From Psychrosphaera aestuarii (GTDB taxonomy: Bacteria; Pseudomonadota; Gammaproteobacteria; Enterobacterales; Alteromonadaceae), in assembly GCF_017948405.1 (NCBI RefSeq), contig NZ_CP072844.1, positions 2,852,001 through 2,916,000 on the forward strand: a stretch of DNA of 64,000 nt, written 5' to 3'. Shown here piece after piece: positions 21,680 through 23,236 of the stretch (its first letter is position 1; each line of letters begins with the position of its first letter). A program made the translations under genes and the position numbers. The notes beneath the pieces are model-generated. The model ran no database searches, had not been told where the DNA came from, and saw nothing but the letters and a program-made list of their open reading frames with translations.

Positions 21680-21956
21680 TACTTTTCCTTACTTAATACA
21701 AGCTTTTGAATATAAAACCAAGAAATTGGAATTAAAATACATGAGCTTTTTTCTCTTACTTTTAGAGCTTTAACTCTTAATTAACATAAAACACTATAAA
21801 AACAAAAGTTTTATGAAGATTTTGCAACGGCATTTTGTAAACAAATACAGTTAGAACAAAACAAGTTTATGAATAAAATTGTTTTGAGGTGCGTTTTTGT
21901 TGCTGGGTAAGTTTAGGATATAAAAGAACTAAAAGATAATATTCAAGTCTGAAAAC
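21680..21956. other. A/T-rich intergenic region between tRNA repeat tail and oadG
   Basis: No gene is visible. On the minus strand this is the leader side of oadG and must contain the oad promoter unless the operon is read from the tRNA array. I found no convincing sigma-70 pair and no hairpin followed by a T-run, so no intrinsic terminator for the tRNA transcript is apparent. A weak inverted repeat near 21759-21779 lacks a T-run. Confidence 0.5.
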
Positions 21957-22038
21957 GGAGGTTCTCATCCGACCCGACCCGAGTCTGACTTTTATGACGA
22001 TATTTATTTAAGTTTTTAGATTGTTTGTTTTGAAAGAA

Positions 22039-22057
22039 TGGCGCGCTCGGGAGGATT
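22039..22057 (-). pseudogene. 19-nt tRNA-Arg 3'-end remnant, distal copy
   Basis: Identical to the last 19 nt of the intact tRNA-Arg genes, including CCA. Upstream on the minus strand the match stops, a 70-nt hairpin-rich stretch intervenes (22058-22127), and a further 7 nt matching the T-arm (22128-22134) follow. Confidence 0.85.
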
Positions 22058-22219
22058 ACTTCGTACATCCTGTACTTCGCCCTTCGGGCCGCCTAAAGGC
22101 GTTTAATTTTGTTCCATACAAAATTATCGAACCTAACGGAGGTTCTCATCCGACCCGAGTCGAGTCTGACTTTTATGACGATATTTATTTGAGTTTTTAG
22201 ATTGTTTGTTTTGAAAGAA

Positions 22220-22238
22220 TGGCGCGCTCGGGAGGATT
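22220..22238 (-). pseudogene. 19-nt tRNA-Arg 3'-end remnant, proximal copy
   Basis: Second exact copy of the tRNA-Arg 3' end, 181 bp from the distal copy and 184 bp from the CCA end of the nearest intact tRNA-Arg gene. The same 70-nt insert (22239-22308) and T-arm match (22309-22315) occur. Confidence 0.85.
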
Positions 22239-22403
22239 ACTTCGTACATCCTGTACTTCGCCCTTCGGGCCGCCTAAAGGCGTTTAATTTTGTTCCATAC
22301 AAAATTATCGAACCTAGCGGAGGTTCTCATCCGATCCGAGCCAAGTCTGACTTTTATGACGATATTTATTTAAGTTTTTAGATTGTTTGTTTTGAAGAAA
22401 GAA

Positions 22404-22480
22404 TGGCGCGCTCGGGAGGATTCGAACCTCCGACCGCCTGGTTCGTAGCCAGGTACTCTATCCAGCTGAGCTACGAGCGC
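22404..22480 (-). tRNA. tRNA-Arg (anticodon ACG), copy 3
   Basis: A 77-nt cloverleaf with encoded CCA. The 5' strand GCGCTCG pairs with CGAGCGC and the discriminator is G. The anticodon stem CCTGG/CCAGG encloses CTACGAA, giving anticodon ACG, read as ICG after deamination, for CGU/CGC/CGA codons. It is the last tRNA of the array and runs directly into the 181-bp repeats. Confidence 0.97.
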
Positions 22481-22565: not shown

Positions 22566-22642
22566 TGGCGCGCTCGGGAGGATTCGAACCTCCGACCGCC
22601 TGGTTCGTAGCCAGGTACTCTATCCAGCTGAGCTACGAGCGC
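22566..22642 (-). tRNA. tRNA-Arg (anticodon ACG), copy 2
   Basis: Same 77-nt sequence as the other two tRNA-Arg genes, with encoded CCA. It is separated from copy 3 by 85 bp and from copy 1 by 22 bp on the same strand. Confidence 0.97.
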
Positions 22643-22664: not shown

Positions 22665-22741
22665 TGGCGCGCTCGGGAGGATTCGAACCTCCGACCGCCT
22701 GGTTCGTAGCCAGGTACTCTATCCAGCTGAGCTACGAGCGC
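22665..22741 (-). tRNA. tRNA-Arg (anticodon ACG), copy 1
   Basis: First of three identical tRNA-Arg(ACG) genes, 21 bp after tRNA-Ser in the direction of transcription. Cloverleaf and CCA are complete. Confidence 0.97.
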
Positions 22742-22762: not shown

Positions 22763-22855
22763 TGGCGGAGAAGGGGGGATTCGAACCCCCGATAGGGCTA
22801 CAAACCCTATACTCCCTTAGCAGGGGAGCGCCTTCAGCCACTCGGCCACCTCTCC
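22763..22855 (-). tRNA. tRNA-Ser (anticodon GCU)
   Basis: A 93-nt class II tRNA with the long variable arm of serine tRNAs and encoded CCA. The anticodon stem CTCCC/GGGAG encloses CTGCTAA, giving GCT for AGC/AGU codons. It is the first gene of the array. The csrA-tRNA-Ser-tRNA-Arg order is the same as in E. coli. Confidence 0.97.
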
Positions 22856-23044: not shown

Positions 23045-23236
23045 TTACTCAGCTTCCGAAGGCGCTCCGCCTTTTTCTGCTTGAATTCGCATATAAATTT
23101 CTTCACGATGAACCGCTACCTCTTTAGGGGCATTAACACCAATTCTTACTTGGTTGCCTTTCACTCCTAAGACAGTCACGGTAACTTCATCACCGATCAT
23201 TAACGTTTCACCAACACGACGAGTTAGTATAAGCAT
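23045..23236 (-). CDS. csrA: carbon storage regulator CsrA
   Basis: Dimeric RNA-binding protein that represses or activates mRNAs by binding GGA motifs, often in hairpin loops near ribosome sites. The 63-aa protein has the key RNA-contact residues Leu4 and Arg44 (VHREEI). The leader has a strong AAGGAG ribosome site, itself a GGA motif, so autoregulation as in E. coli is possible. It lies between lysC and the tRNA array. Confidence 0.98.

Follow-up and report, generated by a model that had tools for sequence, protein, structure and literature searches.

The tRNA-Arg tail of Psychrosphaera aestuarii

The window, a 64,000-nucleotide stretch of the Psychrosphaera aestuarii genome, carries a 181-bp tandem array on the minus strand, placed after the third of three tRNA-Arg(ACG) genes. 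Read along that strand, the locus begins with csrA (23045-23236; 63 aa, Pfam CsrA E 1.1e-25), which lies upstream of the tRNA cluster, about 0.6 kb from the array, and is followed by a terminator-like site (23039-23021), by tRNA-Ser(GCT) as the first gene of the cluster (22763-22855), by the first (22665-22741), second (22566-22642) and third (22404-22480) copies of tRNA-Arg(ACG), and by the array. The four minus-strand tRNA genes were called by ARAGORN, and the third tRNA-Arg, the source of the copied 3' end, scores 67.2 bits with the Rfam tRNA model. Because the array lies on the minus strand, downstream runs here towards lower coordinates, a detail in which the original prediction is corrected.

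TRF called the array at 21954-22422, with a period of 181 and 2.6 copies; the 181-nt repeat copies at 21954-22134 and 22135-22315 are 98% identical and the third is partial. Counted from behind the CCA of the tRNA to the CCA of the copied end, unit 1 comprises 184 nt (22220-22403, minus strand) and unit 2 181 nt (22039-22219, minus strand), and a third, partial unit (21954-22038, minus strand) holds the trailer, the anti-3'-end segment and half of hairpin P2, where the array stops. The last 19 nt of tRNA-Arg, AATCCTCCCGAGCGCGCCA, CCA included, recur without mismatch at 22220-22238 in unit 1 and at 22039-22057 in unit 2 (19 of 19 nt both times), which bears out the nearly identical 181-bp units with exact tRNA-Arg ends of the original prediction. 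Lying on the same strand directly downstream of the gene, with 19-nt identity to its end, the array is, by these sequence features, an array of tRNA-linked repeats (TLRs) resembling those of E. coli. The TLRs of E. coli K-12, described by Egan and Landy 1978 and Rudd 1999 as cited in PMC8144298, number 22 at ten loci, one to five per locus, and follow a tRNA or rRNA gene from which their 3' end is copied, 18-19 bp being identical to that gene's 3' end (PMC8144298). The likeness to E. coli tyrT that had been proposed for the array holds, since the known kind is the E. coli TLR and the rtT of tyrT is one of them; RtT units in K-12 are spaced 178 bp apart, as against 181 bp in the window. Occurrence at a different tRNA is likewise true here, but with TLRs already described at ten E. 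coli loci it is not new in itself.

In the MFE fold of unit 1, the anti-3'-end segment (22329-22341) supplies the 5' strand of a stem, P1, whose closing strand lies in the copied end, and P1 encloses hairpins P2, A, B, C and D. Hairpin A (22285-22307) has the loop AUGGA, hairpins B and C (22260-22282; C being GCCCGAAGGGC) follow, and hairpin D (22244-22256, GUACAGGAUGUAC) again carries GGA in its loop. Unit 2 repeats hairpin A with the same AUGGA loop (22104-22126) and hairpin D as GUACAGGAUGUAC (22063-22075), so that the window holds two GGA-loop hairpins in each of two units, all on the minus strand. The fold is moderate when set against shuffled sequences (z -1.85 and -1.86; equalled by 7 and 6 of 200 shuffles). 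No terminator-like site was found between tRNA-Arg and hairpin P2 of unit 1, and the terminator-like matches at 22326-22310 and 22145-22129 coincide with P2 itself and were not accepted as terminators.

Across the genus, the Arg array has two units in P. aestuarii (genome G000), one unit in G007 and a remnant in G005. No array was found at the Arg locus of G001, G003 and G004 or on the pieces of G002 that were examined, and G006 gave no tRNA-Arg match. A search of relatives had been suggested as a check on the repeats, and its outcome is divided: relatives do carry them, but at the Arg locus the unit of G007 and the remnant of G005 are the only ones among the other genomes of the genus.

Within the P. 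aestuarii genome, the Rfam tRNA model finds 73 tRNA genes, and up to 2,500 nt downstream of all 73 was scanned with the gene's own 3' end. Copies of the own end occur at four loci, namely tRNA-Arg(ACG) (19 of 19 nt twice, 184 and 365 nt from the tRNA), Pro(GGG) (20 of 20 nt, 176 nt downstream), Ser(GGA) (19 nt with one mismatch, 178 nt downstream) and Phe(GAA) (17 nt with one mismatch, 149 nt downstream); the sole further match above threshold was one of 10 nt, 2,270 nt from a tRNA-Gln. The copies at Ser(GGA), Pro(GGG) and Phe indicate that the array is not a one-off. At Pro(GGG), the copied end and a 67-nt trailer are exactly repeated and flank an 89-nt core on both sides. The Phe tail (L006, 1400-1640) has its core inverted relative to the tRNA, and its end is still the 17-nt tRNA-Phe 3' end with one mismatch. 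In the Ser(GGA) tail (L011, 1400-1640), a terminator-like hairpin with a T run can be seen by eye after the tRNA and again after the copied end; the Ser(GGA) TLR thus seems to sit between two terminators, like RrB in rrnB. Alignment to rtT had been proposed as a check, and full-length alignments to the Rfam RtT model were obtained with Arg unit 1 (34.6 bits), Arg unit 2 (37.1 bits) and the Ser unit (33.0 bits), all three below the gathering score of 45; the Pro and Phe tails gave no RtT match at E up to 5.

Distribution of the repeats

Among 60 genomes, P. aestuarii included, the Rfam RtT model matched 23 at E up to 1, seven of them above the cut-off, and 26 of the 28 loci from other genomes that were read after this search follow a tRNA; the RtT loci L083 and L084 are without a tRNA and look like chance. 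A second covariance model, R1, was built from 23 aligned units, those of the window among them, and scores 119.9 bits on window unit 1 and 119.2 bits on unit 2, both being part of its own training set. In the family, R1 matched at least 76 of 98 genomes (E up to 0.01), and in the class at least 118 of 274 (E up to 1e-5), with the best 34 (family) or best 12 (class) candidates scored per genome, so that copy numbers are lower bounds and misses upper bounds. Six family genomes (G021, G030, G067, G097, G115 and G125) hold at least 32 to 34 R1 matches each, near the maximum of 34 candidates, and other genomes of the family show no R1 match among the scored candidates. For a class-wide R1 sample, one locus was read in each of 29 genomes; a tRNA lies no more than 600 nt upstream at 25 of the 29 loci, and its own end is copied at 23 of those 25. 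The GGA counts of this sample were given no weight, the D-zone count of 28 of 29 including at least four cases in which inspection by eye shows hairpin C (L341, L347, L350, L354) and the A-zone matches of L333 and L354 looking spurious.

A DNA pattern demanding GGA in hairpin A was scanned against named genomes and found in at least 118 stretches, 80 of which were listed; the titles among these 80 include Rheinheimera, Pseudoalteromonas, Psychrosphaera, Kosakonia, Buttiauxella, Gilliamella and unclassified Gammaproteobacteria. The 80 stretches contain 88 pattern matches, 52 of them with a tRNA within 700 nt upstream, and in 38 of the 52 the own end is copied. Pattern matches in other phyla are without a tRNA and look like chance. 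The at least 118 stretches together hold 131 pattern matches, and the hairpin is present in 104, of which 77 have a tRNA on the same strand within 500 nt upstream. The rest of the 104 have a tRNA downstream only (8), none in reach or a cut edge (18), or an opposite-strand tRNA alone (1); an opposite-strand tRNA is near two of the 104 matches, one of them among the 77. This strand bias towards the tRNA argues for a role at the RNA level.

With the core ignored and only a copy of the own end required, 259 partly overlapping loci with 481 tRNA genes, some counted more than once through that overlap, yielded 187 units, 158 of them distinct, at 24 tRNA kinds; a few of the 158, such as L159 at tRNA-Val, do not look like TLRs on inspection by eye. 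The expectation that the repeats reflect something recurrent rather than a single event is thus well founded. Since RtT, R1 or the pattern had selected most of the loci, the units show the anatomy of TLRs and not their frequency among tRNAs. Removal of identical units took the set from 187 to 158, and of near-duplicates to 130, of which 122 were used for the count of GGA by zone and 120 for the P1 test, short or low-match units being omitted. In 92 of the 158 units, the copied end is the 19 nt that begin after the TTCG of the T-loop. The trailer is repeated over at least 60 nt on the far side in 29 of the 158, in some of them followed by a further unit.

The core also occurs in another setting. 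In stretches L355-L363 of genome G372 and L365-L371 of genome G248, A-B-C-D lies within near-identical dispersed repeats with conserved flanks, and by eye the flanks of the G372 repeat look complementary, as if another stem took the place of P1.

Pairing of the copied end and hairpin A

As judged from predicted helices, the partner of the copied end in the tail changes along with the local tRNA. The best helix score of P1 in 120 units averaged 18.9 with a unit's own end and 15.0 with reshuffled ends (sd 0.26, maximum 15.9, 300 reshufflings), and a control in which the region was read backwards gave 15.8. Held in a fixed register (best of four), P1 formed 7.12 of 12 pairs as compared to 6.02 with reshuffled ends (sd 0.14, n=85). 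Of the 120 units, 51 surpass the 90th percentile of foreign ends where 12 would be expected, and many single units are therefore not decisive for P1. The alternative partner of the copied end, the stretch before TTCGA, is weaker (2.84 of 5 pairs versus 2.51, sd 0.07, n=95).

Hairpin A was cut out by its flanks alone, with neither pairs nor GGA required, from 59 units of the own-genome, RtT and R1 loci. It was recovered in 32, with a stem of at least six in 28, and the loop holds GGA in 26 of these 28, whose stems show at least two pair types at every position. The preference of the original prediction for a selected tail RNA over an accident is strengthened by both results, the P1 segment tracking the local tRNA and the stem of hairpin A co-varying round its GGA loop. 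A functionless, accidental tandem duplication of the tRNA tail, homogenised by recombination, would fit the 98% identity of the units and a locus that is empty or degenerate in most readable members of the genus, but it is highly improbable given the same anatomy at 24 tRNA kinds, the R1 matches across the class and a tRNA-specific pairing accompanied by co-variation.

A second alternative concerns DNA rather than RNA. The core could be a small mobile element, REP- or MITE-like, with its hairpins serving a transposase, the tRNA tails being favoured landing sites whose flanks were duplicated and homogenised. The near-identical dispersed repeats of G372 and G248 (at least 160 nt, no tRNA in the stretches read) and the inverted core of the Phe tail make a mobile-DNA part in the history of the core possible, and the trailer repeats on the far side and the variable presence within the genus point the same way. 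However, the core of G372 and G248 is part of longer repeats, which may be what moved, and the strand bias (77 of 104 matches versus at most 2), the tRNA-specific P1 and the retention of the own end are features of the RNA level. No target duplication of a fixed size was seen, the trailer copies beside the core varying in length. We regard an origin as mobile DNA as distinctly unlikely to account for the units.

GGA loops, CsrA and the known TLRs

The GGA hairpins go beyond what had been observed in the window before and, with the tRNA-specific P1 that closes their junction, appear to be the new part of the finding. In the 130 non-redundant units, GGA stands in 186 of 498 hairpin loops, followed by GGG (58) and GAA (56), and TCC, which GGA loops on the opposite strand would yield, in 9; at least one GGA hairpin is found in 108 of 130 real units as against 15 of 130 mononucleotide-shuffled ones. 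Both zones, A and D, hold GGA in 2 of 4 own-genome, 12 of 20 RtT-found, 31 of 35 R1-found and 43 of 63 pattern-found units, counts that are biased because the pattern imposed GGA in hairpin A and most units behind R1 carry GGA. Bias is smallest in the RtT-found units, where each zone holds GGA in 13 of 20, with GAA tying with GGA in the A zone and AGG in the D zone, both of which overlap GGA; the RtT-found units from G052 and G054 (L063, L086, L064) are without the GGA pair. On these predicted hairpins, the GGA-loop pair is common at tRNAs outside E. coli. In enterobacterial tRNA-Lys tails, the first core of L135 and L155 (Kosakonia, Buttiauxella) carry GGA in both A and D, that of Gilliamella (L130) has it in hairpin A only, and those of K-12 are without the pair.

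The published CsrA consensus is RUACARGGAUGU (PMC4347634). Hairpin D of the window, ACAGGAUGU (ACA-GGA-UGU), lacks one base of the SELEX core ACARGGAUGU. Among the 130 units, 6 contain the exact core and 18 this one-base-shorter form. R1 matches E. coli RrB, the TLR of rrnB (58.4 bits, E 6.8e-15), and the alignment places the two GGA hairpins of RrB, CAAAUCCGCCGGGAGCGGAUUUG and GGGCAGGACGCCC, on A and D. As reported in PMC8144298, CsrA was the most enriched protein with RrB as bait, RrB was bound at about 100 nM, and the change of three GGAs to UUU, both loop ones included, abolished the CsrA shift; deletion and overexpression of RrB had modest and contradictory effects.

The predicted binding of CsrA to the window units follows from their alignment to RrB. 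We consider it fairly probable that the array gives rise to structured tail RNAs that have a tRNA-like 3' end, bind CsrA and link tRNA synthesis to this regulator. The tail RNAs would be made as part of the tRNA-Ser/Arg operon's primary transcript, in which the trailer segment would pair with the copied tRNA 3' end to form P1, a tRNA-like stem with CCA at its 3' end, as a signal for 3' processing and protection of the kind proposed for RrB. The junction that P1 closes round P2, A, B, C and D would present the GGA loops of A and D, which align with the loop sites of RrB, for binding by CsrA, perhaps by one dimer on both, and the two units would offer four putative sites. Released along with tRNA transcription, these RNAs could let tRNA synthesis titrate CsrA, the gene for which lies just upstream. 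The TLR features, the cognate copies with their stem, the co-variation of hairpin A, the GGA loops and the match to RrB are all found in the sequences themselves; from them we infer transcription, processing and CsrA binding in P. aestuarii and a regulatory effect.

An unlikely alternative dispenses with CsrA and sees in the TLRs RNA-processing furniture only, a tRNA-like 3' end for RNase E or exonucleases that acts as a decoy or stabilises the trailer, with GGA kept for another binder or for folding. The cognate-specific P1 would account for the copies of tRNA ends without any CsrA, the TLRs at E. coli tRNAs retain the copied end yet are without the GGA pair, and recognition of the repeated end by RNase E has been proposed in PMC8144298. 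Such a role leaves unexplained, however, that GGA is by far the commonest loop triplet despite changing stems and that the units match the CsrA sites of RrB.

TLRs, first described in 1978, still had no known function as of 2021 according to PMC8144298, which proposes one for three rRNA TLRs of E. coli. In that paper, tRNA operons hold 19 of the 22 TLRs of E. coli, with CsrA predictor scores all below 0.01, and the rRNA TLRs are suggested to be "unique among the TLR family" in binding CsrA. The window units differ from these predicted non-binders in their two GGA-loop hairpins. For K-12, our scan agrees with the published suggestion that only the rRNA TLRs bind CsrA: among 12 TLRs scanned in its tRNA operons (4 tyr, 3 arg, 5 lys), a GGA loop is absent from 10, and the other 2 have a single weak one each. 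In K-12, R1 scored 15.7-59.5 bits on the tails of tyr, lys, arg and rrnB. The link to E. coli was made by covariance models only, E. coli genomes having given no BLAST match to the window unit. The gene order in K-12 is csrA-serV-argVYZQ; R1 matches follow argV (25.8 bits), argZ (24.7) and argQ (15.7), all without GGA loops, and these tails end in the end of their own tRNA (19 nt at two, 18 at the third).

In the open-licence literature, no paper among the matches listed described CsrA sites in the tRNA TLRs of bacteria other than E. coli, which is weak evidence of absence. CsrA-bound sRNAs have been reported in Pseudoalteromonas (PMC11882849), the main text of which contains no word starting with tRNA or RtT. 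If tRNA TLRs carry a recurrent CsrA-type hairpin pair, the phrase "unique among the TLR family" would become a statement on E. coli alone, and the pair would offer a specific and cheap test for the family. A wider joint claim, which we put forward tentatively and hold to be possible rather than probable, is that the dual-GGA TLR is the common and perhaps ancestral gammaproteobacterial form, that stable-RNA transcription as a whole titrates CsrA through dispersed CsrA-binding tRNA and rRNA tails, that E. coli kept the sites in its rRNA TLRs only, and that the tails may do much of the work of CsrB where the CsrB model is silent, as in this genus.

RrA, RrB and RrF, the TLRs of rrnA, rrnB and rrnD, share with the window units a core with hairpins A and D and GGA loops; they end in a copy of the 5S rRNA and lie between two rRNA terminators, whereas the window units end in a copy of tRNA-Arg. 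The Rfam RtT RNA (RF00391, the tyrT tail) shares full-length alignment and an anti-end segment that pairs with the tRNA 3' end, but the units of the window and of the rest of its genome stay at 33-37 bits, below the gathering score, and the tyr units of K-12 are without the GGA pair. 3'ETS-leuZ, which PMC8144298 cites as a tRNA-transcript fragment acting as a sponge for RyhB and RybB, resembles the proposed tails, by description only, as a regulatory RNA from a tRNA transcript; it acts by base pairing.

The CsrB model RF00018 gave no match in the P. aestuarii genome at E 0.01 and was silent in all eight genomes of the genus (E up to 0.01); as it matched only 12 of 30 genomes overall, this silence proves little, and a replacement of CsrB was not adopted on these grounds. 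The sponge RNAs CsrB, CsrC and RsmZ, which are separate genes, share with the window units GGA in hairpin loops and, as proposed here, the titration of CsrA. CsrB-type RNAs are described with 9-22 sites each, more than the window units have. As proposed, the tails would couple the synthesis of tRNA and rRNA directly to CsrA, a global regulator.
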